Source: a virus. From it: a stretch of 64,000 nucleotides of DNA. The notes beneath the pieces were generated by a model that saw only the letters and a program-made list of their open reading frames with translations, did no database searches and was not told the DNA's origin. This document shows, piece after piece, positions 1,948-46,238 of this stretch (positions are counted from its first letter, which is position 1; every line of letters begins with the position of its first letter). The DNA lies in the IMG/VR virus record IMGVR_UViG_3300009370_001221, positions 124,001-188,000 of that record; one strand, given 5' to 3'. Made by a program: the position numbers and the translations under genes.

Positions 1948-2972
1948 TAAATGCTCCTATATATGTCTAGTAGCATTTGTGGATCATAATGTTCACTCTC
2001 AATATTAGAAAGTTGGTCTATAACTATAGAGTCAATACTGTCAAAATTTAACTCTATGTCTTCATTCAATATATCTAAATCTAATTTCTCCTTGTCTGGC
2101 AATAAACTTAACTCACGCATTTTAAATTGTTCAGCAAATGTCTCTTTAACATAGTTTGCCTCTTCGTAAGTAATATCAATATCCATAGTAACCCTAGCAT
2201 AGGTTTTCTCAGTTAGATAATAACCCGGATCATCCAGTAATTGCGATAATTTTAATGTTTTATATGAAGGTGCATCAGGCCACGCAACAAACTCTGGCTC
2301 GCCATCCCACTCCAACATCATCATACCTCGCTCATCATCCCAAGCATCACTGTAGTTGTGGGGGAAACAATTGCCTACATATACAACATTCTTGCGTTGC
2401 TGTCTTTTATGAAAGTGGCCGCTAAAAACATAATCTGCTTTATGCATATCTTCAGCATGTAACTCATTAGTTTCAGGCATTTGTATCATTGCGTTCATAT
2501 AGAAATGTGGCAACTCGAAATGTCCAAAGATATATTTTGCTTTTACTTTCTTTAATTTTTTGTAATCATCACCCACGAGCCAAGGCACAATAGCACAATT
2601 TCCCGCATTAAACGGTTCATCTACTATTGTTATACCAGAGAATCTACTAGCAAACTCTACACTATTAAGATCACGCCTATCTCTGTAATATAAGTCGTGA
2701 TTGCCCGTGATAAAGTAAAAATTATCAAACGAACTGCCTAGTTTTTCCAAACTACGCAGGCTATAGTTCAGTGTGCTGACATTGATGCTGGCTCTATGAT
2801 GGTGCCAGTCTCCCAAAAATATGGCAGTTTCGCAATTGTTTTCTTGTGCGGTTGCTATGAACCAATCTACAAAATCTTCGCAATCTTTATTGTGTGTTAT
2901 TGAGTTACTTTTATTACCAAAGTGAATGTCTGTACATACTGCTATTTTATTGAATAAATTATCCGTACTCAT
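1947..2972 (-). CDS. 47: gp47 recombination nuclease subunit (SbcD/Mre11-like)
   Basis: This is the metallophosphoesterase partner of gp46, the nuclease that processes double-strand ends. All the Mre11/SbcD metal-binding motifs are visible in 341 residues: D15-I-H17, G54-D55 (GDWHHHR), the N91-H92-D93 triad (TGNHD), H151 (FGHFELPHF) and G185-H-F-H188. The length matches T4 gp47 (339). The gene precedes gp46 with a one-base overlap, as expected for subunits made in equal amounts. The ATG at 2972 sits exactly seven bases below a TATAAT box with a consensus -35, so the mRNA may have no leader. The -35 box overlaps the end of the gp55 gene. Confidence 0.96.
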   Translation of the reverse strand: MSTDNLFNKIAVCTDIHFGNKSNSITHNKDCEDFVDWFIATAQENNCETAIFLGDWHHHRASINVSTLNYSLRSLEKLGSSFDNFYFITGNHDLYYRDRRDLNSVEFASRFSGITIVDEPFNAGNCAIVPWLVGDDYKKLKKVKAKYIFGHFELPHFYMNAMIQMPETNELHAEDMHKADYVFSGHFHKRQQRKNVVYVGNCFPHNYSDAWDDERGMMMLEWDGEPEFVAWPDAPSYKTLKLSQLLDDPGYYLTEKTYARVTMDIDITYEEANYVKETFAEQFKMRELSLLPDKEKLDLDILNEDIELNFDSIDSIVIDQLSNIESEHYDPQMLLDIYRSI

Positions 2973-2979
2973 TTATATT

Positions 2980-3008
2980 ATTATAACGTACTTAAAGTAA
3001 AGTGTCAA
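2980..3008 (-). promoter_or_regulatory. Consensus sigma70 promoter for gp47-gp46 (possibly leaderless)
   Basis: On the minus strand TTGACA (3008-3003) is followed by a 17-base spacer and TATAAT (2985-2980), both perfect sigma70 hexamers at the optimal distance. Seven bases separate the -10 box from the ATG of gp47 at 2972, so transcription should start at or next to the start codon. No Shine-Dalgarno sequence can be present. The same geometry occurs at 31370-31398. Confidence 0.85.
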
Positions 3009-3826
3009 GAAGACGATGGTGCTGTATTTGATGTATTTTGATTCTGTCTTGTATAACTTGGTGCAATATTATTCATCTCTAGAATATCATCACGAATATT
3101 TTGATTTTTCTTTTCTGTGTTTAATATTTTAGTAAAGGAATTAGTAATTATTGCTGTATAATAAGCAAATGGATTTTGACTTTTGCTTTCATCAAACAAC
3201 AATCCTACTTGAACTAGTTGTAATATTGCTTGGCCACGCATCTCATCATTATATGTATATCCACGCCAATTAGATCTTGTTCCGTATCTATCACACAATT
3301 TAATAAACATTCGTGCTAACGTATCAGTCATATGCCCATGTTCCTTACAGAATTCTCCCTTTTTTAAATCACCTTTCCAATGACTTTTACCAACGCATAT
3401 TAATACACTTTCTTTACTATCATCATTAAACCGAAAGTGTTGATAAGGCGGAAAAGGTAACTTTTCATAATGATCTGCGACAGATTTAGGAGTTTTTACT
3501 CTGCCGTGTTGTAGTGGTATGTGCTCAAATGACATTATTCTAAACACTAGATCAGATTTTGCTATCTTTTTCCAATTTACTTGAAAGTCAATTAATCTAG
3601 GTTTTTTCTTTTTATTTGTATTTTCTGCTACTGCAATAGCATGATTATTTTTTGCTATTTTCGCGGCTCTATTGCGTTTTGCTTGGGCAACAGAACGTAT
3701 GTTTATTTTTTCAATGTTAGGAAGGATTATATCATAATCCTGATCTGTTGGTGTTAAATAACTACTATAACTATTTTTTGATTTATGTATTTCTTCTAAT
3801 ATATCTTTGTTTCGTAAGTATATCAT
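3005..3826 (-). CDS. 55: gp55-type sigma factor for late transcription
   Basis: This is the phage sigma factor that directs host RNA polymerase to TATAAATA late promoters together with the gp45 clamp and gp33. The 273-residue protein is longer than T4 gp55 (185). A lysine-rich N-terminal region of about 90 residues is followed by the conserved part. That part includes the region-2-like stretch MTDTLARMFIKLCDRYGTR, a conserved WRGYTYNDEMRGQAIL and SQNPFAYYTAIITNSFTKI (near residues 217-235), which is characteristic of gp55 proteins. The C-terminus is Ser/Asn/Thr-rich and low complexity. Upstream lie both a sigma70 promoter and a perfect TATAAATA box, suggesting early expression followed by self-activation. 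A GGAG motif ten bases before the ATG serves as ribosome binding site. Confidence 0.9.
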   Translation of the reverse strand: MIYLRNKDILEEIHKSKNSYSSYLTPTDQDYDIILPNIEKINIRSVAQAKRNRAAKIAKNNHAIAVAENTNKKKKPRLIDFQVNWKKIAKSDLVFRIMSFEHIPLQHGRVKTPKSVADHYEKLPFPPYQHFRFNDDSKESVLICVGKSHWKGDLKKGEFCKEHGHMTDTLARMFIKLCDRYGTRSNWRGYTYNDEMRGQAILQLVQVGLLFDESKSQNPFAYYTAIITNSFTKILNTEKKNQNIRDDILEMNNIAPSYTRQNQNTSNTAPSSS

Positions 3827-3844
3827 TAAGGTTTCGCTCCATCA

Positions 3845-3852
3845 TATTTATA
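3845..3852 (-). promoter_or_regulatory. Perfect T4-type late promoter box upstream of gp55
   Basis: The minus strand reads TATAAATA, the exact T4 late-promoter consensus, 18 bases before the gp55 ATG. Transcripts from it would still include the GGAG ribosome binding site. It lies downstream of the sigma70 promoter for the same gene, so gp55 probably reinforces its own synthesis. Confidence 0.7.
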
Positions 3853-3856
3853 CTAT

Positions 3857-3885
3857 ATTATAATACACGTACATTAAAAAGTCAA
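3857..3885 (-). promoter_or_regulatory. sigma70-type promoter of gp55
   Basis: On the minus strand TTGACT (3885-3880, five of six consensus bases) is followed by a 17-base spacer and a perfect TATAAT (3862-3857). Unlike the gp47 promoter it leaves a leader of roughly 25 bases with a ribosome binding site before the ATG at 3826. Confidence 0.75.
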
Positions 3886-3892
3886 ATAAATA
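3885..3892 (+). promoter_or_regulatory. Late promoter box opening the structural module
   Basis: The plus strand reads AATAAATA, a one-base variant of the T4 late box TATAAATA, 23 bases before the ATG at 3916. An AGGAAAAAA ribosome binding site follows it. It overlaps the -35 region of the divergent gp55 promoter, so the switch from early to late transcription meets here. Confidence 0.6.
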
Positions 3893-3915
3893 ATGTTATA
3901 ATATAGGAAAAAAAT

Positions 3916-4656
3916 ATGGCTATACGTGGACTATCACCAAGACTAGGAAACTTACTTGCTAAAGCAATACCTTTTGGTGCTGGGTTATTTGGTAGCTCAG
4001 GTAGTGGGAATCCAACTATTAGATGGAATGGCCCAGCAAAAGAACACAATCATGACTGGCGAACAAAACTTACATTAAGTTCAGCTACCAAAAATTTATT
4101 AGTCGGTAGTACAGTACTGCGTCCATTACACGACACCGGCGGTATTATTTTTCCTTATACACCAACTATTTTTGTACAGCATTCAGCAAATTTTGGTTCT
4201 AGTCAATTAACACATAGCAATTATGACCACCCTGCATTTGATAGTCATACAATTGGTGATTTAACTATTACTGGTCAGTTTACTGCTAATAGTTCTGCAG
4301 AAGCAGACTATGTATTAGCAGTATTACATTTTTTAAGAACAACAACTAAAATGTTTTTCGGCCAGGATTCAGACTTTCCGCCAGGAACACCTCCTCCTGT
4401 TTTGAGATTAAATGGGTTTGGAGATCATATATTTAAAAATATACCAGTAGTAGTAATAAACTTTAACATGGAAATGCCGGGAACTGTTGACTATGTCAGA
4501 ACAACAAATACTTTGTCAATGATTCCAACATCTACTACTATAGCAATTACAGTTAAACCTGTATACTCTAGAGCATCTACTTCAAAACGATTTGGACTTA
4601 AAAAGTTTGCGAGTGGTGCGTTACTAGGTAGTGGTAGTGAAGGGGGATTTATTTAA
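3916..4656 (+). CDS. gp48-like baseplate tail-tube cap protein
   Basis: This is probably the protein joining the baseplate to the tail tube. The 246 residues begin with a glycine-rich amphipathic segment. The body includes FPYTPTIFVQHSANFGS, LTHSNYDHPAFDS and DLTITGQFTANS, typical of tube-fold proteins of myophage baseplates. A final NFNMEMPGTVDYVRT segment is followed by a Ser/Lys-rich tail. It is shorter than T4 gp48 (364). Its position immediately before gp53 and the hub genes supports a tail-tube cap or initiator. It could equally be the gp54 equivalent, and I cannot separate gp48 from gp54 by eye. Its stop overlaps the ATG of gp53 (TAATG). Confidence 0.6.
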   Translation: MAIRGLSPRLGNLLAKAIPFGAGLFGSSGSGNPTIRWNGPAKEHNHDWRTKLTLSSATKNLLVGSTVLRPLHDTGGIIFPYTPTIFVQHSANFGSSQLTHSNYDHPAFDSHTIGDLTITGQFTANSSAEADYVLAVLHFLRTTTKMFFGQDSDFPPGTPPPVLRLNGFGDHIFKNIPVVVINFNMEMPGTVDYVRTTNTLSMIPTSTTIAITVKPVYSRASTSKRFGLKKFASGALLGSGSEGGFI

Positions 4657-4958
4657 TGACAGTTACTTACTCAGCTGATAGTCCGTATGCCATTACTCCT
4701 ATAGCCAATAATAAATTAGATTTGATGACTTATAGAACATTTTCTTTTGAGCCAGATGATATGGTGTATACAATTGATCAACTTTACAACAATAGACCAG
4801 ATTTATTAGCGCATGATTTATATGGGAGATCCACTTTTTGGTGGGTTTTTACTGTACGTAATCCAGATATTATAGTAGATCCTATTTGGGATTTTACTAC
4901 TGGTACCACAATATATCTTCCACAATTATCTACGTTAACACGATCATTAGATGGATAA
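4656..4958 (+). CDS. 53: gp53 baseplate wedge protein, short form
   Basis: The 100-residue protein has the gp53 signature: an N-terminal MTYRTFSF segment, then DLLAHDLYGRSTFWWVFTVRNPDIIVDP and a GTTIYLP strand. This is the 'choose a dwelling, run it and place it' region shared by T4 gp53 and LysM-like baseplate proteins. gp53 completes the baseplate wedge and allows hub-wedge joining. T4 gp53 has 196 residues, so only the conserved N-terminal half is represented. It lies between the tube-cap gene and the hub gene, with a TAATG overlap upstream. Confidence 0.8.
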   Translation: MTVTYSADSPYAITPIANNKLDLMTYRTFSFEPDDMVYTIDQLYNNRPDLLAHDLYGRSTFWWVFTVRNPDIIVDPIWDFTTGTTIYLPQLSTLTRSLDG

Positions 4959-4964
4959 TATAGC

Positions 4965-7900
4965 ATGGCAGCTTCAGACGTAACATTAGATGGTACTGCG
5001 GCAACGAGCAGACATGCTGAATCAACTGGGCATTCTCCCCATGCGGCAACACCAGCAGACGCAGGCCAAGCTGATAGTAGTGGTGGGTTACAATCTGAAA
5101 TAAATGCTAACCAAACTATTATAGCAAACAAACCTGGCCCAGAATGCCCTGATAATATTTTACATAATTATGCCAATTATACATATAAAATTAGTTTAAT
5201 GACTTGGGATTCGATAGAAGATTATAATGCAGATATTCAAAATGGAAAATGGCCATTAAAAGAAAATAATAAAAAAGTATTATTTTCTAGTGGTGGTATT
5301 GCTGAGCATGGGCCCGGAGCAAGTGGTCCTCCAGGTAGAAATTATCCAACACCTGCTCCACGACATGAAGAATTTGATGTGGATTTTTATATATCTTCTT
5401 TTACTACAACGTCTATTATGGGACTCAGTGGTGAATCAAGAGCCACTAATATTTTTGAATGTAATATGGAAGTCGTTGAACCTATTGGCGCAACGCTTTT
5501 AGAAAGGTTCTATACATTAGTTACAAGAGATGGGCGAGAAAATTGGGCAGAATTTCCACTTCTTATTAAAATAGAATTTATTGGATATGATGAATCTGGG
5601 AAGCCTGAGCTTATTAAACCAGCAATGAGACAAATACCAGTGAGACTTATAAACATGGTGTTTGATGTTGCTGGGGATGGGTCGACGTGTGGTCTTCAAT
5701 TTGTTGCATCCACCACTATTAAAAAAGACCATCCGCGAAATATTAAAATGGAAAGTAATGAATTGTGGGGTGTAACAGTAGGAGAATTTTTAACTGAATT
5801 TGCTCAGATTTATAACGATAACCAAAAGCATAGAACACATATAGGCCCCAATATGGATGAGGCTCGTGCATTGGTGAGTCAGGGCGCCAGCGCCAACGCC
5901 GGCGGCGCCGGAACAAACACCGCCGCTTTTGATGATATGGGTTCTGGATCTGCCGCAATAGCAGGCCCTAAGGTTCAAGAAGTTGCTGATACAATAGAAT
6001 TTGATATTGATCCTGCGATAGCAAAAGCTAAGATAGTACTAGAGGTAGCAGAGGACGCTCAACTAGAGGAAAAACCAAAAGAAGATCCATTTAAAGATAT
6101 GCCGCCAATATGGGTAGGACACGGCGTTGGAGTGAAGGCCGTGAAGGCGAGAGCTGCTATTAGAAAAAAAGTAAAAGATAGAGAAGCAAAGGCAGAAGCC
6201 GAAAAAAGCAAAGGAATTATTCCTGTAAAAGAAGGCAACCCAGCAAAAGTATCTATTGCCGCAGGCACCAAACAATTGGCCGTTATTGAAAAAATTATTA
6301 CTTTTAGTGAATATATCACTGACCAATTAATAGATCCAGAGAATGCATTCGAAGGGGGAACAAACAAAAGTAACCTAAAAAATAAAGAACTTTTAAAAAA
6401 TCCAGATCAAGGATTATTATGGTGGAAAGTTACCTTTGTTCCTGTACTAAAAGAATGGGATGACGCAAGAGGCCAATATGGTATGCATACTATTATTCAA
6501 ATTACACCATACAGAGTAAATGATCCAGTAACTACTGGTGGTAAATGTGAGATAGGCGTGGGCGTAACAGCACCTGCTATGCGTAATTACCAATACATAT
6601 ATACTGGCCAAAATATAGATGTTAAAGATTTTGCAATTAGTTTTAATAATTCTTTTATGCAAAGTATGATAGGGCAAGGAACAGGAGATTCTAAAAAAGC
6701 AAAAGTAGATGAGAGTAAAAATTCAGGGACTGGCCCAGGCCTAGCAAAATCAAATGCTACAACACCTGCATCTGCTGATCAACATGATCGCAGATATAGT
6801 ACTGGATCAAACCATAATAGTAAACAAAAGGCGGCCGGCACTATATTAGAAAATTTATATAGAAAGTTAGGTTCTGATATGATGCAATGTACTATTAATA
6901 TTGTCGGGGATCCACTCTATATACAACAAGACGGTATTGTAAATGTAGGACGAAAGACTAAAACAGGAACCATTGATCATAATTGGGCCATAGATCCAGC
7001 AAATGGTGCCGCATTGGCTGACCATCAAGATGCCCATATATATCTTTCATACAAAACACCAACCGACTATAGTGAAGGGACTGGTTTAATGGACTTTAAT
7101 GCGGGGGATCCAAGACATAGATCAAGTACATTAAGTGGTTATTACAGAGTGTGGGAGGTTGTTAATACTTTTCAAGGTGGAGAATTCAATCAATCGTTAA
7201 ATTTAACTCGTGTATATAACCAATGGAGAGAACAAAAGTACAATCCTTTAGAGGAAGGGAGTTTTAATGATAGGTCAGATTTTACTCAAGGAGGAGCAAG
7301 CCTGGGTGCAGGTGCAAGCCTGGGGCAAATTGCAAATTCTATAGCAACATCAGGTGGATCCGCCAAAAGAGATACTACATCAGAAGCATCATTAACTACT
7401 AGACAACGCGATCAACTAGCCATACAACAAGATACATTAAAAAAAGAAATAGATCTTGAACGTACTATTCTAATGAATGAAGCAACGGACCCTGGTGTAT
7501 TAAGTGTGCGAGATTCAAGAACTACTTCTAGTAATGTGTTTGTTTCCAATGATAATGCCCGCAATAAACAAAATACAGATGAAAATAAAATAAGATTTGA
7601 TGCGGCACAAAAAAAATTAACTAATATTAACGCACTATCCGACACCTCATCAGTAGAACAACAAACCACATTTGCTGATAATGTAAATGCAATGGGAAAT
7701 AATACTGACACATTAAGTCAAACATTTGATAATGATAGTTTAACTCCAACCTTTTCTGAAAACAGCGGACACCCTAGCCAAACATCTGTAGCTGGATTAC
7801 GCAGTAGTGCATTACACAAAACATTAACAGGAGTAGCAAATGGTACAAGTATTGTTTCTACTACAAATAATGGTGCACCATTATTTGATTATAATAAAAA

Positions 7901-8165
7901 AGGTGGGCTATATGGAGTTGCTGAAAATGAAATTAATTTGTCTTCATACACAGCCGATGATAAGGCATCCATTAATACTAACGAAGAATTAATTAGAACA
8001 CAACGCGAAATTCTTATTGGAACAGGAAATTTAGTTGCTAAAAAGGCCGCATACACCATTGCGAATGACGCAAGTAAAACCAATCAAACAATTCATGGTA
8101 AGTATGGTAATATATACAGAACGTGGGAGGAAGTAGGTTATTTTCAAAACTTACTAATATCATAA
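4965..8165 (+). CDS. Large baseplate hub-like structural protein (candidate gp27 equivalent)
   Basis: A 1066-residue protein directly upstream of the gp5 spike. The N-terminal 70 residues are Ala/Ser/Gly-rich and probably disordered. Residues of about 70-260 form a conserved beta-rich domain (YTYKISLMTWDSIEDYN, EEFDVDFYISSFTT, IFECNMEVVEPIGATLLERFY) that recurs in marine myophage baseplate proteins. An Ala/Lys/Glu-rich helical stretch follows near 340-430, then a second beta domain (about 480-760) with a WREQKYNPLEEG segment. The C-terminal 300 residues are Asn/Thr/Ser-rich. In T4 the gp5 partner is gp27 (391 residues). Position and large beta domains suggest this protein provides the hub torus here, but that is inference. 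No enzymatic motif was seen. Confidence 0.5.
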   Translation: MAASDVTLDGTAATSRHAESTGHSPHAATPADAGQADSSGGLQSEINANQTIIANKPGPECPDNILHNYANYTYKISLMTWDSIEDYNADIQNGKWPLKENNKKVLFSSGGIAEHGPGASGPPGRNYPTPAPRHEEFDVDFYISSFTTTSIMGLSGESRATNIFECNMEVVEPIGATLLERFYTLVTRDGRENWAEFPLLIKIEFIGYDESGKPELIKPAMRQIPVRLINMVFDVAGDGSTCGLQFVASTTIKKDHPRNIKMESNELWGVTVGEFLTEFAQIYNDNQKHRTHIGPNMDEARALVSQGASANAGGAGTNTAAFDDMGSGSAAIAGPKVQEVADTIEFDIDPAIAKAKIVLEVAEDAQLEEKPKEDPFKDMPPIWVGHGVGVKAVKARAAIRKKVKDREAKAEAEKSKGIIPVKEGNPAKVSIAAGTKQLAVIEKIITFSEYITDQLIDPENAFEGGTNKSNLKNKELLKNPDQGLLWWKVTFVPVLKEWDDARGQYGMHTIIQITPYRVNDPVTTGGKCEIGVGVTAPAMRNYQYIYTGQNIDVKDFAISFNNSFMQSMIGQGTGDSKKAKVDESKNSGTGPGLAKSNATTPASADQHDRRYSTGSNHNSKQKAAGTILENLYRKLGSDMMQCTINIVGDPLYIQQDGIVNVGRKTKTGTIDHNWAIDPANGAALADHQDAHIYLSYKTPTDYSEGTGLMDFNAGDPRHRSSTLSGYYRVWEVVNTFQGGEFNQSLNLTRVYNQWREQKYNPLEEGSFNDRSDFTQGGASLGAGASLGQIANSIATSGGSAKRDTTSEASLTTRQRDQLAIQQDTLKKEIDLERTILMNEATDPGVLSVRDSRTTSSNVFVSNDNARNKQNTDENKIRFDAAQKKLTNINALSDTSSVEQQTTFADNVNAMGNNTDTLSQTFDNDSLTPTFSENSGHPSQTSVAGLRSSALHKTLTGVANGTSIVSTTNNGAPLFDYNKKGGLYGVAENEINLSSYTADDKASINTNEELIRTQREILIGTGNLVAKKAAYTIANDASKTNQTIHGKYGNIYRTWEEVGYFQNLLIS

Positions 8166-8166
8166 A

Positions 8167-9672: not shown

Positions 9673-9700
9673 TTATATATAGTAGCATATTATTAAATTA

Positions 9701-9708
9701 ACTAAATA
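9701..9708 (+). promoter_or_regulatory. Late promoter box before gp25, six bases from the ATG
   Basis: ACTAAATA, a late-box variant common in marine T4-like phages, ends six bases before the ATG of gp25 at 9715. With the usual spacing, transcription would start at about the ATG. No ribosome binding site fits in between. The same six-base spacing is seen at 28073. Confidence 0.55.
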
Positions 9709-9714
9709 TTGTAC

Positions 9715-10107
9715 ATGGCTATTACGTATAAAGGGTTTTCGACCTACAAAAAACAATTTTCCAACTCATACACTTTGAGTGGATTTGAACTTGCAAAACA
9801 AGATTTAACAAATCATTTTAACATTCGCAAGGGTGAAAAACTAATGAATCCAGAATTTGGGTCCATAGTTTGGGATGCATTATACGAGCCACTAACAGAC
9901 GAAATAGTATCTGAAATAGAAGAAGATATTAAAAGTATTATTGGGTATGATCCAAGATTGGAAGCAGAAAGCATATTGCTTGAACAGTATGAAAATGGAT
10001 TGCTTTTAGAATTACAAGTAAAATATATACCTGATCAAATATTAGGATCACTTTTGTTTGATTTTAATAACACATCTGGCCAAGTAACAGTGAGAGAAAC
10101 AGCATAA
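9715..10107 (+). CDS. 25: gp25 baseplate wedge protein
   Basis: A 130-residue member of the gp25/TssE family, a sheath-like wedge component found in all contractile injection systems. The conserved core is visible: DLTNHFNIRKGEKLMNPEFGS and WDALYEPLTDEI, followed by EEDIKSIIGYDPR. T4 gp25 has 132 residues. A TTG six bases upstream is in frame, but the ATG at 9715 gives the family-like N-terminus (MAITYKGFSTY) and is preferred. The stop overlaps the ATG of gp6 by one base (TAATG), as for co-translated wedge subunits. Confidence 0.9.
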   Translation: MAITYKGFSTYKKQFSNSYTLSGFELAKQDLTNHFNIRKGEKLMNPEFGSIVWDALYEPLTDEIVSEIEEDIKSIIGYDPRLEAESILLEQYENGLLLELQVKYIPDQILGSLLFDFNNTSGQVTVRETA

Positions 10108-13508: not shown

Positions 13509-13516
13509 GAAACACC

Positions 13517-25500: not shown

Positions 25501-28069
25501 TTATACTGCCGCACCAACAATTAGTTTTACTGGTGGCGGTGGCAGTAGTGCTACAGCAACAGCAACAGTTTCATACTCATCCTATAATAAGTTAGAAACA
25601 GCACATGAGGCGGCCGCTAAAAAGCACAGCGATCGTTTAACATTATATTATGCTGGTGGACAAGCAGGCACAGGTAGTACAAAAACATGGGATAATAAGA
25701 CAGCTGACATTTTAACCTATGATGCAGTTATAGCAGACTCAGGATTACAATATAAAGCAAACAAAGTAACAGGTGCTACATTTGATATGGAACCTGGTTA
25801 TGATAGAGCATCATTCTCATCTTCGGCATTTGATGATTCTGAAATTAGTCCAGAAGGTATAGCAGTTATCTCAAGTGTAGATACTGATTTAGGCGGTGGT
25901 GACTTTAGTACAACTGGTGGTATAGATCCTGCTGATGTTGTAGTAGATGGTGACGGCTTTGTAACAGAATATACATCACATGCACCAGAAGAACAAGTAC
26001 CCGGTCGTGTATTTGATACATTGGATATTAAAGTATATGAAATGCCTTCACCACGTGAATCAGGCGTTACTATTAAAAAACATACATTTGAAGGTAATGG
26101 TTCAACTGTAACATATGATTTTACTGGCAAGGGCGGACTGCCTACAAATCTTGAAGGTATTGAAGTATATGTAAATAATTCATTAAAGAAACTAACAACC
26201 GATTATACTGTTTCTATTAGAAGTAATGATATAACAATGGTTTCTCCTGTGCCAACAGGACAATTAATACATTTTGTATTAATTGAAACAGGTGGTGATA
26301 CTGTTACATCAACTAAACAAGATTTTTATGGGGACGGTTCAACAACACAATATGTTGTGAATGTTCCATATGAATATGCACAATATTTGTATGTGACTGT
26401 AAACGGTGTAGAAAATAATCCAACATGGACAGCAACCAGTTATTATAAAAAAACAAAATTAACTTTTGCGTCAGCACCTCCAAGTGGCGGCCGCATACGA
26501 GTACATACATTCAATAAGTCAGGATTAACACTTACAAATGCAGGCAGTGGCTACACATCGGCTCCAGCAGTAACATTTAGTGGAGGTGGAGGTAGTGCGG
26601 CAGCTGCTACAGCAGTTATCAATGCTGAAGGCAAAGTAAGTGGATTAATTGTAACAAATGCAGGTACTGGATATACATCAGCACCAACTGTTACAATTGC
26701 AGGCACAGCAACCGCAACTGCTACTGTAACTGATGGTAAAATAGAAGCAATTAGACCATTTGTTAAGGTTGAAAGTGAAGAACAAACAATTACTGTTCCC
26801 GGCAGTCCAACATGGCCTGCAAGTTACACTTATACATATGGTCAGGATAACTTCTTTGATTTTGGTCCTGACGCCGCAAAAGTGTTTGTGTATTTAAATA
26901 ATGAACGATTGAATCCACCAGATACAGAATACTATACTGGTGATGGGTCAACTGCTGTATATGCCTGTCCGTCTAATCCAACTATTGCATATGCTTCAGT
27001 AACTGATGCAATGGTTCAGGTACACGTAGATGGTGTATTAAAAACACTTACAACAGATTATACATTTACTGGTGGAACACCACCACGTGATGAAATAACA
27101 TTTGCTGTTGGTAAAGTACCAGCGGCAGGTGCAGAAATAGCAATTACAGTTAGAAACGGGCAGTATTGGATTCCAAATGATTATCAAATTATACTTGAAA
27201 ATGGTAGCGGTGTATCTGTTACTGCTGGAACAATTGCTACAGGTGATAAATTGTTTATACAGTCATTTGCTAATCAGAGATATAGCAAAGGCAAAACAAT
27301 TGTAATAAAAGGCACATCAGTTGCAACGGCTACTTCACTAGAAAAATATGATGCAGTAATTTATGATTCGTCTGGTTATGCTGGTGATGTAAGTGTATCA
27401 ATCTCAACACCAATATATGATATATCCGCATTAGAAAATAATTCAAATTATGTATGGGTATGGTTAAATGGTGTACCACAAATTGCTAACCACGATTACT
27501 ATATAACTGGAACTAAACTAGTAATGACTCCATTAAGTGGTAGCATATTAGCGTCAGATATGATTACTGTTAGTGGTATGAGACAAGCAGAACAACGACC
27601 TGGTATTGCTTTTAGAATTTGGAAAGATATGTTTGACAAGACATCTTACTATAGAATTGCATCAGCAAATACAACAACACTGTCTACAGCATTAGCAATG
27701 ACAGATATAGAAATTAATGTAACAGACGCAACTAAATTGTTGACACCTGTTCCAACAACAGCAACGCCAGGTGTGATATTCATTAATGGCGAGCGTATAG
27801 AATATTGGGAAATAGATGGTAATAAACTAAAAAGAATACGTCGTGGCACATGGGGCACAGGTGCTCATGCTACACATGCTTCAGCAAGTGAAGTAGTAGA
27901 TGGCAGTAAACAACAATTAATTCCAGGATCAACAGTACATACTAAAGTTTGGTATGATCAAGGAACAACACCAGCCGCGGCTACAAACGGCTTAGGTTTG
28001 GGTATGGCAACTGGTAAGGAAGTAACGTTCCTTAAAGAGGCACCGCTATCAACTCCCAAGGTAATATAA
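13517..28069 (+). CDS. Giant multidomain virion structural protein (gp7/VrlC position), 4850 residues
   Basis: One uninterrupted frame of 4850 residues, nearly a quarter of the window, follows gp6 where T4 has gp7 and cyanophages have large VrlC-type proteins. The N-terminus (LLPQQFQTDVNKKFLNATLDQLISP) resembles marine phage baseplate-anchored proteins. About 2200 residues of beta-rich sequence follow. Next comes a YHYH domain (YHYH at 2248-2251, GYAYDGYPIYGPFGY near 2291, ending near 2385). Four FG-GAP-like blades follow (about 2445-2520, 2611-2655, 2678-2702 and 2911-2935). The last third has six GxGYTSAP-type repeats and four G-D-G-S-T strand repeats (near 2538, 4192, 4270 and 4473). The pattern suggests a baseplate-rooted fibre or receptor-binding arm. 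No catalytic residues were identified. The ATG at 13517 follows gp6 by eight bases with AGGAAA as ribosome binding site. Confidence 0.75.
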   Translation: MAIRKTVNLLPQQFQTDVNKKFLNATLDQLISPGTMEMLSGFVGRRDVDNFKNTDSYIVETDNDRLNYQLEPAVTIKKELSETKYDFASTYIDIVNSISAAGGDNNNHDKLFSNEYTVWSPPIDYDKTINYTKYYWLQTGPDRCDITDPITISDIVGKKTYTYTSVDGNKTLKFSTGLKVRFTGTVTPSTYANIDYIVADVGTSIRLIPLSELYTPESAVYTLSKDYLTIKRGAIDGNQWSNNNRWFHEEIIGVTATYNKDTAIYDSALRAKRPILEFDNDLKLYDYGTKLLTTVDLVDTTFTDAFTQLEGEPGGYIDGVALTAGQKVVFTADTDPLVNGYIYDVQFVTIGGVSVIHLEKNTTVADPATDNTIIVNSGADNKGTQWYYKNSKWYKGQVKTGLNQAPIFDVFDKNGNSFSTYASSTFAGSNIFSYAVNSAGTADTELGFALTYKNFTNIGDIIFNDNLIKDSFSYTSDATAGTTTSVRLATGFLHKNTALTTYSTLSNWEKAPFESRQFIQNTIVVGSELKQFKVTTIPKTETTAKNLIVTVNGKLKEKGTGTTTKDYYVTTDTGFQYVNFTNNLTIGDILVIKVHTDTSIEKLTTGEFYTIPTNLSNNPLNDMTTTTNFTLGQVRDHISSCIENSLDFSGATLGSNNIRDIGDIATLGTKIIQNTGSLLKAGYMLTNGTYNLIDSITHASNEYNRFKNQFLNKAKTIGDFTSTSDRLDKTLRAMAAEKNSTMPYFDSDMVAFSTDITTLSYTVFDIDNKQFELNTTYNDTIPGQTAVLVYKNDVMLLKDQDYTFSTTTPFVTLTSNITLAENDVIKLVEYTNTGGNFIPPTPTKLGLYPKYVPSKYSDDTYTTTIDVIQGHDGSITPAYSDYRDDLLLELERRIYNNIKAVYNFKLVDINSVIPSRFRKTQYSTDTVNNILAIELAQWANNNNVDYTKNSYYVSGSDWTYNYKNIKDTLSDAEFLPGYWRAIYKYFYDTDRPHTHPWEMLGFSIKPSWWETTYGPAPYTKDNLVLWTDIEAGKIVSGDRAGTYIEYARPGLVATFIPTDAAGDLKSPTSIGIVGLVTGEIQGNFSVGHQGPVETAWRRSSYYPFAIQILLALTKPAKYCEFMFDTSKITTNMLGHYVDKTTTLPIKPNVSKIHSYINTDSTVDYTLGYNNWVVDYSKYLGLNTTTFYKQLNALGINLAYKMSGFADKDKLKIILEQISPSKSTTDIFIPQEDYNFHLMESSPIQSINYSGVIITRSTGGWKIDGYNKKQPTFKILPSIITSNRRRTVSVGGYAPKCSELITGRSYSVNEYIKSGDIYYQVKTAFIAGDGDDLANLTRIAKLPTIGGVSATQYDDYSTTVATIPYGKEYTTVQEVYDFLISYGRYLESVGFVFDNVTNGFDYIEDWKNTAKEFLFWTLHNFSIGSMITCSAGANTIKLNLVSAQIDTMSNNMLPSSVIDQNRDRISVNNLFYSRIDNNFQLSVSDNTDGIYAATFNPIQTEHLLILENETVFKDVIWSLFTGSRQNRIKLVGYKTELWDGTQQLPGYVLLDDTVDDWDINKSYPIGEIVKFKDKFYASKFNHDPNDLTELGKFDFSKWKLLDRVNGGLLTNLDSKADNFRGYYEIEDDGRIIETDTLASNLIGFQNRKYLENLQIGDIAQKKFYQGFIKEKGTSSITNKLLRAKLPAIDSTLNLYEEWAFRVGEYGSVASSQVIEFKLKENEFTDNPELIEIINTAEQYKNTNITHRPSDLYQKPLEPRQFNKNVFKNLAEDISTRDYLPDAGYARLDDVQHKVLSLENWVPNNTVDITENINIDTQLIGKTSYTSTEGIITTLTNGMVVKFTGINTIPTSYKTGTWIVTGVDESIKLTEKSEYLNSLNVGDKMWVANSATYPPTYAENSNDWNVYRITSTKNNPISITGDTIANTIKVTFKNPVDSILVNEIIILRRFVDSTIPAIDWSGVYKVKTNFTSDGLNVLELYADLDLSASFETLSLNETSTRGEFLKLESARYATTSALVNRTEPTHGWEDGDYAWIDNHNSTNKWAVLEKKDPYTLGKELYPNGKATNTGFGQGVAGNKDLSTILVGSVYDTTSAGSIEQWTRDVATVFDVKSIFVSDITSKTAGTLNTSGYLLTVESDGLPHPAPFGTFPTTDGKNPNRVVTRNYKHTFKTRVGTNTTAAPQVAVPLGGIGIMANGVVIASPSATATLPNDNGPAKGVAPTGFEWNAVENATAVGMDASHGHPQEDNQYHYHSGKFLSQWDYHVYQANTYYQGTNYSGDHWRHTDGHSKILGYAYDGYPIYGPFGYQTATDSTTTPLRMTSAYQKHTDPVSGRGYTYTEYPAGTFINDYQFNSAVGTLDKHNGRYCVTPDYPDGTYAYFLTITSAGVPVYPYIIGPTFKEIPTLETDTVPVDPGGSNAQTIALTPGEFTYSNTVVDGSKLKNSGWAGWQFDMAVDDDYVVTSAPNSNSGQGYAIVLKKKTDKTYEPFDIMRSPSPTTNGYFGYDIAVSKSGTYVLVGAPGELKAYMYKLGTGVTASNEYFNGDGSTNVFTFSSTSFSNSNELTVIVDGQIKIETLDYTLSATQITFVAASIPPSGTNNIHVRKGNYYSAIKTFTGASGTDFGRSVALSDDGTIAFIGQPNKADGTALSAGATEVWSKTPTDTYFKIQDIKSNISSTNENFGKEVECGVDGHIVAIGSPGTDFLVIKEITTDAINAGQVECWIDNTKHTGTITGTVANPTVSIGDKLVINDQEVTFTGTALSNVVSDITAKAIPHITASATSDNKLKIVSTKTDANAKLTIRAGTTNGGTVFTALGLTLYTYKSALRHPDGPQNAFYGEHIKFNNTATMITIGSPSSSSEFELTLDGNLTKFDQQNTIITDVQPDSGSALIYDINTDLTYSLIQRVDWANRKKNDKFGTGLAMIGNTALIGAPGDDYFVEELKTADGVATAYAITGQFTTDNLEISMNGRTMLQAEFSSDNASPNSTVTFTTAPVATSAIVFKKYTQNTGSVLEATNTNNKVAWNSKRTQSDKIDIGAINKVITYDKSTNKFIDYIDYHDPIKGKIPGVADEEISFKTIYDPAVYNVTFNATVVNDLKNHWGPNEVGVLWWDLTNTKYIEYEQGELEYKRLNWGKLFPGTQINIYEWIESDSLPSTYVSLGGDGTPKFADDSAYVEYQKYNTSTNTLEPIYYYWVKNKTSVPEVSNAYLDANGQIKFAAHGKELELKSFIPAATRKLPAKTVATILTNPTAYGLKYIGIAAQNAFIGYNLQTGLTGENIILSIEYDTVKNDIPLHTEWQLVQKNNPLSKPNNYLITKLGDSLAGKDVSENLVPDTNVHVGSRYGIMEYPRQSMFIDRLGAIKVLVNFCNSVFTKHRMALDYSLIKISSADKAPTYGYGETVATYTELTYINTNTITDGYKVIVASDETRGNYWVTYQWSVSDNRWNLEKKQKYDTTKYWDYIDWYATGYDSNTIIDYTVATENDRAKLDTKLNDVVKVLNDGQSKWILYKNTSASTTDVYDIIGQENATIKFKTTLYTTTTPLAELRYIIDALNTQLFVSDLEVEFNKLWFELIHFILYDQNLQVDWAFKTSFVTINQTVRKLSELVNYSYDVQDSVRDFINEAKPYRTNIREYVYRYDYTELPQIGNTDFDLPGYYDTTDKLFRSPNVYEADDDARMLTAPWVDWKNHYTKKVVSVNVLTAGSGYATTATSTYDAVGYDITGYDHSATTASPPIVTISSGAQWKLGYTYDETKIPGAAGAQAVLVVPEHSPDTLWYYSGTEQGTTQWKDMGWKVTIKPKLATNESKTFAVTVVLDGTGKPDFYIDGTERPNLILYRGSTYTFTQTDVSNLGYGFFRFSAIEDGTHRDGSGATAVPVMKTPGLASVDSITVTNGGTGYVTTPIVTISGGSGSGATGYANLENYKVRDLKETIKFDRVDAPSHVKTIAVTAGGSGYTSAPTVTITNASGDTTGVGASAKAVITGGAVTAVIVEQEGTGYTAAPTISFTGGGGSSATATATVSYSSYNKLETAHEAAAKKHSDRLTLYYAGGQAGTGSTKTWDNKTADILTYDAVIADSGLQYKANKVTGATFDMEPGYDRASFSSSAFDDSEISPEGIAVISSVDTDLGGGDFSTTGGIDPADVVVDGDGFVTEYTSHAPEEQVPGRVFDTLDIKVYEMPSPRESGVTIKKHTFEGNGSTVTYDFTGKGGLPTNLEGIEVYVNNSLKKLTTDYTVSIRSNDITMVSPVPTGQLIHFVLIETGGDTVTSTKQDFYGDGSTTQYVVNVPYEYAQYLYVTVNGVENNPTWTATSYYKKTKLTFASAPPSGGRIRVHTFNKSGLTLTNAGSGYTSAPAVTFSGGGGSAAAATAVINAEGKVSGLIVTNAGTGYTSAPTVTIAGTATATATVTDGKIEAIRPFVKVESEEQTITVPGSPTWPASYTYTYGQDNFFDFGPDAAKVFVYLNNERLNPPDTEYYTGDGSTAVYACPSNPTIAYASVTDAMVQVHVDGVLKTLTTDYTFTGGTPPRDEITFAVGKVPAAGAEIAITVRNGQYWIPNDYQIILENGSGVSVTAGTIATGDKLFIQSFANQRYSKGKTIVIKGTSVATATSLEKYDAVIYDSSGYAGDVSVSISTPIYDISALENNSNYVWVWLNGVPQIANHDYYITGTKLVMTPLSGSILASDMITVSGMRQAEQRPGIAFRIWKDMFDKTSYYRIASANTTTLSTALAMTDIEINVTDATKLLTPVPTTATPGVIFINGERIEYWEIDGNKLKRIRRGTWGTGAHATHASASEVVDGSKQQLIPGSTVHTKVWYDQGTTPAAATNGLGLGMATGKEVTFLKEAPLSTPKVI
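24601..26720 (+). repeat. Six GxGYTSAP-type repeats inside the giant structural gene
   Basis: Six related segments of about 20 residues, of the form VTNxGxGYTSAPxVTxxGGxG, start near residues 3699, 3883, 3943, 3989, 4336 and 4378 of the giant protein. Coding is also repetitive at the DNA level (ggcagtggttat and ggtacaggttat variants). The Gly and beta-strand alternation suggests short beta-prism or fibre-shaft units. Confidence 0.75.
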
Positions 28070-28072
28070 TAG

Positions 28073-28080
28073 GATAAATA
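28073..28080 (+). promoter_or_regulatory. Late promoter box, six bases before ATG
   Basis: GATAAATA lies immediately after the stop of the giant gene and ends six bases before the ATG at 28087. This is the same spacing as at the gp25 gene, and it leaves no room for a ribosome binding site in the transcript. Confidence 0.6.
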
Positions 28081-28086
28081 CTTCAG

Positions 28087-28761
28087 ATGGAAAACAATGA
28101 AATCAAGCAAGAAACCAGTGAAGAGCAAGAAGAAATGCAAGAGAAACAACCTAACGAAATTCCAGGCGTAAACGTCGAGGGTTTTATTAAAATATTTGAT
28201 CCAGATTCGGAAGAAGTATTTGTAGAACAACGTAACGCTATTCATTATGAAAACTTTTCCAAAGCATTAGCAGACAGTATTTCTAATCAGACTACTGGCT
28301 TTATACACGAAATGCACTTCGGTAATGGTGGCACATCCGTGTCTACTACAGGCATTATAACATATCTACCTGCTAACAATTCAGGTGCGTCTTCGGATTT
28401 GTATAATAAAACTTATTACAAAGTTGTTGATGGAACTAGTTCCTCAAATACAGATCCTACAAGAAATAAAATGACTATAAGCCACACAAGTGGTACAATT
28501 TATACTGATATTTTAGTAACTTGTTTGCTTGATTATGGAGAGCCTGCAGGGCAAGAGGCATTTGATAACTCATCAGCACTAGATGGGTCATATGTTTTTG
28601 ATGAATTAGGGTTAAAAAGTTGGGAATCAGGTGGTATTGCTACAGGTAATTTATTAACACATGTAGTATTTCACCCAGTACAAAAATCACTTAATCGGTT
28701 AATTCAAATAGATTATACGATAAGGATACAAACATTAACGAATCTAAGTAGTGCAACATAA
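28087..28761 (+). CDS. Putative virion structural protein, baseplate/fibre module
   Basis: A 224-residue protein with a very acidic, Gln/Glu-rich first 25 residues that is probably disordered. A compact conserved core follows: VEGFIKIFDPDSEEVFVEQRNAIHYENFSKALADSI, GFIHEMHFGNGGTSVSTTGIITYLP, then a beta-rich end (LLTHVVFHPVQKSLNRLIQIDYTIRIQT). The core pattern is familiar from structural proteins of marine myophages between the giant gene and the fibre genes. I do not recognise a specific T4 counterpart, and the sequence does not look like T4 gp8. It has its own late promoter and is followed by another one. Confidence 0.6.
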   Translation: MENNEIKQETSEEQEEMQEKQPNEIPGVNVEGFIKIFDPDSEEVFVEQRNAIHYENFSKALADSISNQTTGFIHEMHFGNGGTSVSTTGIITYLPANNSGASSDLYNKTYYKVVDGTSSSNTDPTRNKMTISHTSGTIYTDILVTCLLDYGEPAGQEAFDNSSALDGSYVFDELGLKSWESGGIATGNLLTHVVFHPVQKSLNRLIQIDYTIRIQTLTNLSSAT

Positions 28762-28763
28762 TA

Positions 28764-28771
28764 GATAAATA
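28764..28771 (+). promoter_or_regulatory. Late promoter box before fibre gene
   Basis: GATAAATA lies two bases after the preceding stop codon and 43 bases before the GTG start at 28815. Here the leader is long enough to hold the AGGAGA ribosome binding site seen 10-15 bases before the start. Confidence 0.6.
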
Positions 28772-28814
28772 GAAATATACGTATTTTAAAAAGTCGACTC
28801 AGGAGAGATAAAAA

Positions 28815-30359
28815 GTGGCATATACAGTTAACAAAACGAGTGGTGCAGTTTTATCCGTAATTGCGGATGGAACATTAGACACTACAACGAATTTAACCTT
28901 AATTGGTAAAAACTATTCCGGTTATGGTGAAGTTCAAAATGAAAACTTCGTAAAACTACTAGAAAACTTTGCTAACTCCTCCCAACCGTCCTCACCACTC
29001 GCTGGCCAGCTCTGGTGGGACACAACAAATACCGCACTCAAAGTATATACCGGAACAGCTTGGGTAGAATCAGGTGGTGTTACATCCGCATCTTCAGCAC
29101 CTTCGAGCCCAGTAGAAGGTGATTTATGGTTTGATACTACAAATGATCAATTAAAAGCATGGAATGGTTCAGCGTGGATTGTTATTGGACCAAGTTATTC
29201 GGGTGGTGTATTAAGTGGAGCAATAGTAGATACAATAGTAGATAATGCATCAGGAACACACACAGTAGTAAAAATGTATGTTGCTAATACATTAGTAGGA
29301 ATTGTTTCTAAAGATAGTGTTTTTACACCAAACGTTGCTATATCAGGATTTGCAACAGTAAGTCCAGGATATAATTTAAGTACAAATGTAACAGGCGCAA
29401 AATATACAGGCACAGCAACAGACTCCGATAAGTTGGGTGGTGTTGCGGCCGCAAATTATTTGCGTTCAAATGCTAACGATACAACAAGTGGAACACTTGG
29501 CGTTGTCAATGATAATGGTATGACCATTGGTGTCGACTCTGATTTATCAATGAGTGTATCTGGTAATGATGTAACAATTAAGAACGTTACAAGCAACGGT
29601 AATTTACTATTTGGTATTAACCAAGGTGGTTCACCAGCAACTGCTATTACTATTAGTGGTTCAACAAACTCAGTAACTATCGCAGGTGACTTAACAGTTA
29701 GTGGCACAACTACTACACTTAATACAAACAACTTACTTGTAGAAGATCCATTAATTGTTCTTGCTAAGAATGTAACCGGCGCACCATCATTTGATTCTGG
29801 TTTAATAGTAGAGCGTGGCACTCAGCCTAACACAGGTTGGATTTGGGATGAATCTCAAGACCAATGGGCCGCAGTTAATACAACTGAAACAGGTTCAACA
29901 GCAGGCAATGTAGCAATTGATTCATACGCAAACATACAATGTGCTACAATGACGGGTATTTCAACACAAGCGAAATATGCTGACTTGGCGGAAAACTTTA
30001 CAGCAGATTATGCATATGATCCAGGAACAGTATTGCAAATTGGTGGTGAGCATGAAGTTACTATGTGTGAAACTGATGCTTCAGAAGATGTGCTAGGTGT
30101 TGTTAGTTCATATCCAGCATACTTAATGAACAGTGAAGAAGACGGCGTCACAGTAGCAATTGCAGGTCGTGTACCAGTTAAAGTATCAGGCCCAGTTACT
30201 AAGGGTGATAGATTAGTTTCAGCAGGTAATGGCACAGCAAGAAAAGCTTCTAAAGAAGAATGCACTCCATGGAATGTTATTGGGCGGGCCTTAGAAAGCG
30301 ATATTGATAAAGAGGAAACACATATTACATTAGTTATGTGCATTGTTAAAGTAGTTTAA
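28815..30359 (+). CDS. Putative tail fibre protein
   Basis: A 514-residue protein starting with GTG after a strong AGGAGA site. The N-terminal part has tandem modules ending in PSSPLAGQLWWDTTNTALKVY and PSSPVEGDLWFDTTNDQLKAW, the W-D-T-x-N signature of phage fibre shaft modules. The middle is Thr/Ser/Gly-rich beta structure (LTVSGTTTTLNTNNLLVEDPLIVLA). The C-terminal 130 residues form a conserved head (YADLAENFTADYAYDPGTVL, then EVTMCETDASEDVLGVVS, VAIAGRVPVKVSGPVTKGDRLV), which is widespread at the ends of fibre proteins of marine myoviruses. Possible autoproteolytic function of this head is not demonstrated by the sequence. Confidence 0.7.
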   Translation: MAYTVNKTSGAVLSVIADGTLDTTTNLTLIGKNYSGYGEVQNENFVKLLENFANSSQPSSPLAGQLWWDTTNTALKVYTGTAWVESGGVTSASSAPSSPVEGDLWFDTTNDQLKAWNGSAWIVIGPSYSGGVLSGAIVDTIVDNASGTHTVVKMYVANTLVGIVSKDSVFTPNVAISGFATVSPGYNLSTNVTGAKYTGTATDSDKLGGVAAANYLRSNANDTTSGTLGVVNDNGMTIGVDSDLSMSVSGNDVTIKNVTSNGNLLFGINQGGSPATAITISGSTNSVTIAGDLTVSGTTTTLNTNNLLVEDPLIVLAKNVTGAPSFDSGLIVERGTQPNTGWIWDESQDQWAAVNTTETGSTAGNVAIDSYANIQCATMTGISTQAKYADLAENFTADYAYDPGTVLQIGGEHEVTMCETDASEDVLGVVSSYPAYLMNSEEDGVTVAIAGRVPVKVSGPVTKGDRLVSAGNGTARKASKEECTPWNVIGRALESDIDKEETHITLVMCIVKVV

Positions 30360-30374
30360 AAACTATTTGCTTTT

Positions 30375-30382
30375 GCTAAATA
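30375..30382 (+). promoter_or_regulatory. Late promoter box before last structural gene
   Basis: GCTAAATA, as at 9701, lies 69 bases before the ATG at 30452. The leader contains an inverted repeat (cgatatacg...) and ends in a strong CTAGGAGAAA ribosome binding site. Confidence 0.5.
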
Positions 30383-30451
30383 TAGATACATAACGATATA
30401 CGTTATTCTCGAGAAAGAAAAAACGATAATTTATCCTAGGAGAAATCGAAT

Positions 30452-31366
30452 ATGGCATATACATCAGGTGATACGATTCTAGCAGCTCACTATAACAGTT
30501 TCGTATCTGATTTTAATACTAACTGGGGGACAGGAAGTGGTGATCAAGGCTACGGCCAATCAAATACACTTTCCTCGGTCTCAGCTGGTGATACTGTAAC
30601 TGCCACCCAATGGTCTACACTTTTAGCAAGAGAGACAAGCGCCGCGGCACACCAAGGCACTACTCTAACGTCGATTACCTCACCAAACGCAGGCGATACA
30701 ATTAGTGCATTTACAGCATTAGCTGCAAATACAGCATTGATTAACACAAATAGACACAATATTGACAGTGGAAAATATGCTGATACCACAAGCACAGAGA
30801 GTGGTTCAGGAAGTTGGACAACAAGTACAGTACATACTTTTACATTAACTTTTGCCAGTGCTGATGCGGCAAGATATTATTACAATTGTGGCGGTTCAAC
30901 CCGCTTTAGTTTTAGTAGATCAGGCGGTACTTCACATACAAAGAATACAGAATGGTCGAATTTGGCAACAGCGTGTGGTACAGTTATTTTTGCTGTACAA
31001 GGCACAACCAAGTCAGGTGGTTCTGGATCAACAACAACCTTGGCAACAACTATTGGTTATCAAGATATGACAACATCAAACCAAACATTGTTTAAACAGA
31101 TGGAAGGTGATAACCCTTATACTGCTAACTTTATTCAGATAGAAGCAAAAACTAATGCTGTTGATAGTGGCGGCAATGGTGATAATGGACACATACTAAC
31201 ATTTGTAGTTACATGGTCTGATGCGGCTGGTGATACATTTAATGATACTGTAGATGGTACAGTAACAGATACTATTACACATAGAACACCAAACACAAGT
31301 TCATTAAATAATGCAAGTTGGAGTGCGGCACCTTCATATAGTAATACAAGTTTTAGTCAGTCATAA
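30452..31366 (+). CDS. Putative virion/fibre protein
   Basis: A 304-residue Ser/Thr/Gly/Asn-rich protein. It starts MAYTSGDTILAAHYNSFVSDFN and contains two related segments (SAGDTVTATQWSTLLAR and NAGDTISAFTALAANTALIN), so the N-terminal 100 residues look internally duplicated. The rest is beta-rich (HTFTLTFASADAARYYYNCGG, ILTFVVTWSDAAGD). Proteins of this type stand at the end of structural modules in marine phages and are thought to be fibre or decoration components. This is the last gene of the late module, and a sigma70 promoter follows within 10 bases. Confidence 0.6.
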   Translation: MAYTSGDTILAAHYNSFVSDFNTNWGTGSGDQGYGQSNTLSSVSAGDTVTATQWSTLLARETSAAAHQGTTLTSITSPNAGDTISAFTALAANTALINTNRHNIDSGKYADTTSTESGSGSWTTSTVHTFTLTFASADAARYYYNCGGSTRFSFSRSGGTSHTKNTEWSNLATACGTVIFAVQGTTKSGGSGSTTTLATTIGYQDMTTSNQTLFKQMEGDNPYTANFIQIEAKTNAVDSGGNGDNGHILTFVVTWSDAAGDTFNDTVDGTVTDTITHRTPNTSSLNNASWSAAPSYSNTSFSQS

Positions 31367-31369
31367 TAG

Positions 31370-31398
31370 TTGACAATTTGTTGTATCTAATGTATAAT
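31370..31398 (+). promoter_or_regulatory. Consensus sigma70 promoter opening the accessory module (possibly leaderless)
   Basis: TTGACA (31370-31375), a 17-base spacer and TATAAT (31393-31398) form a perfect sigma70 promoter. Seven bases separate TATAAT from the ATG at 31406, exactly as upstream of gp47, so transcription should begin at the start codon or one base before it. No ribosome binding site precedes this ATG. It is the only clear early promoter for the following 28 kb of same-strand genes. Confidence 0.88.
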
Positions 31399-31405
31399 AT
31401 TTTAT

Positions 31406-31756
31406 ATGAGTGTGAAAGATACAGTAAAAAAGAAATTTAACCAAAAAGTGGCTCACGCAACAAAGCGTGAGACCACTTTAGGTTTACTATCCCTCCCTTA
31501 TAACAGCGGTTTATTTAAAATAACAAGAGAATTAATTAATTTTGCCGAATTAATGTCGCTACGTTCCGCGATAGCAGAGTCGGCAGACTTAAAAGCAAAT
31601 CCCACAGTAGTATTAGATTCATATGATAATCCTATATTAATAGAAAATCCACGAGACTTTACTGAGAAACTGTGGCAACGATACTATGAAGTCAATAACG
31701 AATATCTCGAAGATATCAAAACTATTAGGGCAACAAGAAAACCCGAACAAATCTAA
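31406..31756 (+). CDS. Small basic/helical protein of unknown function
   Basis: A 116-residue protein with a basic N-terminus (VKDTVKKKFNQKVAHATKRETT) and helical body (LFKITRELINFAELMSLRSAIAESADL), ending NPRDFTEKLWQRYYEVNNEYLEDI. I do not recognise its family. It is the first gene under the sigma70 promoter, so it is expected to be made early and strongly. Its TAA stop overlaps the next ATG. Function cannot be stated from the sequence. Confidence 0.75.
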   Translation: MSVKDTVKKKFNQKVAHATKRETTLGLLSLPYNSGLFKITRELINFAELMSLRSAIAESADLKANPTVVLDSYDNPILIENPRDFTEKLWQRYYEVNNEYLEDIKTIRATRKPEQI

Positions 31757-46022: not shown

Positions 46023-46238
46023 ATGAAGAAAGATATACATCCAAAGTATGAAGTAATAAAAGTAAAGTGCCATTGTGGCAATGAATTCGAAACCAGGTCC
46101 ACCTTATGTAAAGATTTATACGTGGAAGTATGCTCTAATTGTCACCCTTTCTATACAGGTGGAGCAGGCAAAGTAAAAGTTGAGGGACGAGTAAGTAAGT
46201 TCCAAGAAAAGTATGGAAGAAAGGACATAAAAAAATGA
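46023..46238 (+). CDS. rpmE: Ribosomal protein bL31, zinc-binding type
   Basis: A 71-residue homolog of bL31, which bridges the large and small ribosomal subunits. [36 protein letters not shown] and [11 protein letters not shown] match the family along its whole length. The four zinc ligands (C16, C18, C37, C40) are present, so it is the C+ form. Viral ribosomal proteins are known from marine phage genomes. Incorporation into host ribosomes would be the expected role. Its end overlaps the purC ATG by four bases. Confidence 0.95.

Follow-up and report, generated by a model that had tools for sequence, protein, structure and literature searches.

Within the 64,000-nt window analyzed here (positions 124,001 to 188,000 of the virus record IMGVR_UViG_3300009370_001221, which spans 235,363 bp and is called G000 below), just two promoters match the σ70 consensus TTGACA-N17-TATAAT with zero mismatches. 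One lies upstream of gp47, the gene for an SbcD-like nuclease subunit, and the other upstream of a gene for a 116-aa protein. Both read TTGACA-N17-TATAAT-N7-ATG (N7 being the seven bases between the -10 box and the start codon), exactly as described in the original prediction made from the window. This promoter-to-start geometry is in excess over chance, prefers AUG, lacks a Shine-Dalgarno (SD) motif, is tightly packed behind upstream genes and is conserved. We consider it likely that the two sites exemplify a compact cassette from which early genes set closely behind other genes would be transcribed as leaderless mRNAs; their early timing would follow from the consensus σ70 promoters and the functions of the genes. 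The features concerned are as follows.

TTGACA 3008-3003, N17, TATAAT 2985-2980, minus strand: σ70 consensus promoter of gp47
2973..2979, minus strand: gap AATATAA from the -10 box to the ATG of gp47 (N7); predicted leader of 0-1 nt, without SD
1947..2972, minus strand, ATG at 2972-2970: gp47/SbcD-like nuclease subunit, 341 aa (phrog_100), predicted leaderless
3005..3826, minus strand: gp55-like late sigma factor (phrog_12791)
3857..3885, minus strand: gp55 promoter, near-consensus TTGACT-N17-TATAAT (contrast case)
TTGACA 31370-31375, N17, TATAAT 31393-31398, plus strand: σ70 consensus promoter of the 116-aa gene
31399..31405, plus strand: gap ATTTTAT from the -10 box to the ATG of the 116-aa gene (N7)
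31406..31756, plus strand, ATG at 31406: 116-aa protein, predicted leaderless, opening the following gene block

The gp47 promoter has the TGA stop codon of gp55 (3007-3005) within its -35 box. The promoter of gp55 itself is of the leadered type, with 30 nt between the -10 box and the ATG and an SD-like GGAG in the leader. The T4-type late promoter TATAAATA is absent upstream of the gp47 and 116-aa gene starts, and its sole exact copy in the window, at 3852, lies within the gp55 leader. Comparison of the 116-aa protein with Pfam and PHROG gave no match, and a nucleotide search against phage records gave none either.

The proposed element would be a reusable promoter-start cassette of 35-36 nt, in which a strong host-type σ70 promoter has its -35 box on or beside the stop codon ending the co-directional gene upstream, with the -10 box 6-7 nt ahead of an ATG. 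At this distance transcription should begin on the ATG or one base earlier: for N6 the canonical +1 would be the A of the ATG, and for N7 either that A or the base preceding it. The resulting mRNA would be leaderless and would have to be read through direct recognition of its 5'-AUG. The predicted steps are thus the start of RNA polymerase at that A or the base before, leaderless translation and early timing, and the putative driver is the need to fit a gene with its own timing into a gap that cannot hold a 5' untranslated region (UTR) with an SD motif.

Over the whole record, TTGACA-N17-TATAAT occurs 10 times without mismatch and not once as the reversed pattern that served as the control; these sites have the TTGACA, 17-bp spacer and TATAAT of a σ70 housekeeping promoter. 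The extended pattern TTGAC-N18-TANNNT-N5-8-ATG occurs 14 times versus once in reverse. Eight of the 10 ATGs at N6 or N7 open ORFs (open reading frames) of 109-354 aa, and none of the four at N5 or N8 does. The eight genes encode a deoxyribosyltransferase-like protein, a PD-(D/E)XK-type exonuclease, a DNA primase, gp47, the 116-aa protein, a 7Fe-type ferredoxin, a 109-aa protein and an IMPDH/GMP-reductase-family protein. The geometry therefore recurs at further replication and nucleotide genes, on which the original prediction had staked its interpretation. Promoters scored with two mismatches in the window stand at chance level (29 versus 24.9 expected), which places the signal in the perfect sites and their spacing to the ATG. 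TATAAT-N4-9-ATG without a -35 box is not enriched (62 versus 84 in the reversed control), indicating that the promoter is what matters.

The spacing was then compared over this record and 19 relatives obtained via gp47, with 0-30 nt allowed from the -10 box to the ATG. Among the records listed, from which G004 and G005 (both with N6 sites) are left out of the histogram bins, the distances are bimodal: 30 sites fall at N6, 10 at N7 and 7 at N8, with 0-7 at any other distance, and a second, broad class, often with SD, occupies 16-30 nt. An SD-like motif is present in 1 of 50 leaders at N5-8 versus 25 of 51 at 15-30 nt in these records. In ten relatives, N6/N7 followed by ATG was found 49 times versus 3 for the reversed controls, and 24 of 31 examined ATGs at these distances (30 from the ten relatives, one from the cultured phage PA5oct) begin an ORF of 60 aa or more. 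A search for GTG or TTG instead of ATG at N6/N7 shows no excess (12 versus 13 in the control); exceptions to this AUG preference are GTG starts at the primases of L384 and PA5oct. N6/N7 puts the first T of the -10 box at -12/-13, as in TA-led leaderless genes. These data support the view that the recurrent promoter-to-ATG geometry is under selection, with predicted leaders of 0-1 nt. The fixed spacing of seven bases that had been proposed does not hold, N6 being the commonest distance across record and clade and N7 the next. Of the deliberate leaderless early-mRNA design built on it, the recurrent selected geometry, the predicted leaders and the missing SD motifs stand.

For the ortholog comparisons, start codons were set by homology, independently of the promoter. 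Of 43 distinct sequences upstream of the primase, from proteins of ∼43-100% identity, 42 have the promoter at N6-N8, and none of these 42 contains an SD; the geometry is kept in eight of nine clusters at 75% identity, and the remaining upstream sequence (L375) combines TATAAT at N7 and a weak -35 box. The background is 0.26% of non-start ATGs and 0.21% of shuffled upstream sequences. In many relatives the -35 box falls within the 3'-terminal part of the upstream gene (...(I/V/L/F)DK-LYR*), where the overlapped Asp codon is GAC in 26 of 26 cases against a background of 31% of Asp codons (binomial p of 8e-14, a value that ignores shared ancestry). The residue before Asp varies among I, V, L and F, yet its codon is always xTT, and this constancy of xTT and GAC despite residue changes indicates that TTGACA is preserved. 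Judging from these codons, the -35 box at the primase is held by a DNA-level constraint inside the neighboring gene. In the phage of the window, the box is formed instead with the upstream TGA stop (...KVLYRP*). In PA5oct and Atu_ph07 the upstream gene carries a structural annotation, which places the cassette at the boundary between a structural and a replication gene.

We also considered whether coding constraint could be the sole source of the primase TTGACA; this was ruled out by the invariant GAC and by retention of the box through changes in reading context.

Among the other orthologous genes, the 116-aa gene has N6 or N7 in 6 of 6 distinct relatives. For gp47, N7 is found in the close cluster of this phage (relatives L073-L080) and N6 in L114, L125, L139/L143, L145 and L150. 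The exonuclease has N6 in this phage and G005 and N7 in L281, PA5oct and Paride. In the near clade the IMPDH/GMP-reductase-family gene has N6, and in G003 it has N7; elsewhere the geometry is mostly missing. In the genes of this family from another lineage (L446, L449, L454, L456, L459), the promoter spacer contains GGAG, and a TANNTT or TANATT box resembling a -10 box stands at N6; an SD-like motif so placed would be untranscribed if that promoter were used.

In all eight genes of the record, the upstream gene is co-directional and its stop lies 12-47 nt before the ATG; the promoter takes up this gap, and the stop codon often touches or lies inside its -35 box. None of the eight has an SD. 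By comparison, for the 11 leadered promoters examined the gap, where measured, is 54-299 nt, and seven of the 11 carry an SD. The small gaps without SD at the former, versus the wide gaps with SD at the latter, support a compact promoter-start cassette.

Several observations weigh against reading all these genes as leaderless. Since all eight genes follow genes on the same strand, a read-through mRNA could also cover them; six of the 14 sites at N5-N8 in the record open no long ORF; and the members of a gene family are related, so the counts are not independent. For gp47 the geometry is not universal, with N11-N15 in 80%-identical relatives and leaders of 16-25 nt with SD in many others. A chance origin, in which an AT-rich genome (36% GC) would by itself put TATAAT-like strings close to ATG, would fit the unenriched TATAAT-ATG pairs and the loosely scored promoters; however, with the -35 box included there is a strong excess that is specific to N6/N7 and ATG and predicts long ORFs, and this, with the primase count set against its two backgrounds, makes coincidence exceedingly improbable. 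Alternatively, the true start codons could lie downstream, giving the mRNAs ordinary leaders, and a second in-frame ATG does occur in some genes, at +24 in the primase of this record. Yet the primase relatives align by tblastn from residue 1 and share a conserved N-terminus (MN-IQ...SGW-SFNAPC), and the homologs of gp47 in the near clade and of the 116-aa protein likewise align from residue 1; we regard downstream starts as quite improbable.

The closest competitor, to which we give somewhat less than an even chance, agrees with the cassette reading on the leaderless mRNA and differs on its purpose only. Here compaction alone would have squeezed promoters into minimal gaps, and the leaderless start would be a tolerated by-product with no translational role. 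The cassette indeed fills the gap almost exactly, often sharing the upstream stop codon, and cassettes sit behind co-directional genes while SD-led promoters occupy wider gaps. However, N6-N8 is conserved across the primase family and GTG and TTG are lacking at that position, which shows selection acting on the start position itself. The leaderless mRNAs find their simplest explanation in compaction, and a translational advantage is possible. It is conceivable, although unlikely, that such an advantage makes the arrangement a regulatory device, with leaderless mRNAs favored for 70S, stress or host take-over translation in phages that make no IF3, a factor that disfavors them. Leaderless translation is inhibited by IF3 and activated by ppGpp (PMC9031893), and the PA5oct-like phage Paride replicates in dormant cells in a manner that requires ppGpp signaling (PMC10761892). 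IF3 is encoded by RaK2 (W05), GAP32 (W11), Atu_ph07 (W06), Phosso (W07) and 2.275.O (W08), all without an N6/N7 match, and wherever the primase or exonuclease start was read in these five (in GAP32 the exonuclease only), it carries SD. No IF3 match was found in the 10 records with leaderless starts; several of the records compared are fragments. The contrast, 5/9 versus 0/10 for the records with leaderless starts, gives a Fisher p of ∼0.01, worked by hand and post hoc; because the groups were picked post hoc and are phylogenetically clustered, the correlation is a lead rather than a result. Against a regulatory device, neither IF3 nor the geometry is present in T4, KVP40 or HTVC008M, and many genes in the same phages retain SD leaders. 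We consider it more doubtful still that T4-like jumbo phages without IF3 keep core replication genes (primase, exonuclease) leaderless lineage-wide, so that these can be made through 70S- or stress-type initiation whenever the ordinary route becomes limiting, with SD leaders in the IF3 encoders.

The original prediction had also pointed to altered ribosomes and to a ribosomal protein encoded by the phage:

46023..46238, plus strand: bL31 ribosomal protein gene (PF01197, 100.6 bits over 46023-46217)

Among 27 records, some of them fragments, bL31 is present in this phage and its closest relative, G001, only; it was not found in the other records sharing the geometry, PA5oct included. With this distribution bL31 is no correlate of the leaderless pattern, and the proposed link finds no support; altered ribosomes are likewise without support.

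Among cultured phages, no N6/N7 match was found in T4, KVP40, RaK2, GAP32, HTVC008M, Atu_ph07, Phosso or 2.275.O, and these eight rule out the geometry as a general trait of T4-like phages. P-SSM2 and SCTP-2 have one N6/N7 match apiece, and the SCTP-2 primase has a weaker TTGACA-N16-TAGCAT-N6-ATG. Closer likenesses occur in the Pseudomonas jumbo phages PA5oct and Paride (Wroclawvirus), whose gp47 is 50% identical to that of this phage. The PA5oct exonuclease, a 43% identical ortholog, has TTGACA-N17-TATAAT-N7-ATG at its annotated start, and its primase reads TTGACA-N17-TATAAT-N6-GTG right behind the upstream structural gene, so that the primase geometry is probably kept in this cultured phage. 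These phages differ in their host, in the few such sites seen and in giving no bL31 match. The annotated GTG of the PA5oct primase (145884 in NC_071039; region 145855-145890, L478) abuts the -10 box and could not be on the mRNA from that promoter; the in-frame GTG at 145890 (N6) fits both promoter and homologs better.

Leaderless genes led by a TA signal are known from Actinobacteria, Deinococcus and some Proteobacteria, and a TA signal ∼12 bp upstream of the start is their signature (PMC3160421). In S. meliloti, a class of 171 leaderless starts has been mapped, and leaderless mRNAs depend on AUG (PMC3616915). The genes described here share with them the TANNNT -10 box ∼12 bp before the start, the lack of SD and the AUG start, but belong to lytic jumbo phages, have a full TTGACA -35 box, comprise a subset of replication and metabolism genes and are packed right up to the preceding gene's stop codon. 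Leaderless initiation was discovered in lambda (PMC3160421), whose cI mRNA is leaderless (PMC9031893). As is predicted for the genes described here, the cI message, the first leaderless mRNA of a phage, starts at its AUG; it comes, however, from a single regulatory gene of a temperate phage, whereas the present layout recurs in T4-like jumbo phages and is conserved at the primase. AR9, a jumbo phage with two multisubunit RNA polymerases whose early and late promoters have been mapped, is not leaderless, since its 5' UTRs measure 26-491 nt (PMC5312081).

In the open literature searched, outside which most subscription papers fall, we found no account of early genes being systematically leaderless in T4-like jumbo phages. 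Leaderless genes as such are already known, and the phage cases are usually quoted as isolated ones; lineage-wide, deeply conserved leaderless use in T4-like jumbo phages appears to be new. If true, conserved leaderless core replication genes across jumbo phages would offer a natural, infection-relevant system for leaderless initiation, testable in phages already cultured. Start-codon and operon annotation in cultured phages, such as that of the PA5oct primase, would be corrected, and the question arises whether IF3-carrying phages gave up leaderless genes.

The 7Fe-type ferredoxin (FdxA-like, with a DUF3470 tail; G000:C1:215574, L070) is predicted to be leaderless. Its relatives listed are alphaproteobacterial wherever the title is specific enough, at 60-70% identity, which suggests an alphaproteobacterial host. 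In G005 (the record of L099), several near-identical promoters, TTGACCTTTGGCGCTA...TATAATGTATATAACAGTTAG, have short leaders and form a separate repeated promoter class. Tiny ORFs of 4-34 aa, 5-8 nt past perfect promoters, precede the NadM-like, Hsp20, UvsX and gp32 genes (L060, L062, L065, L066) and may be chance occurrences or leader peptides; the one associated with Hsp20 varies between close relatives, from 8 aa in L062 to 3 aa in L249.

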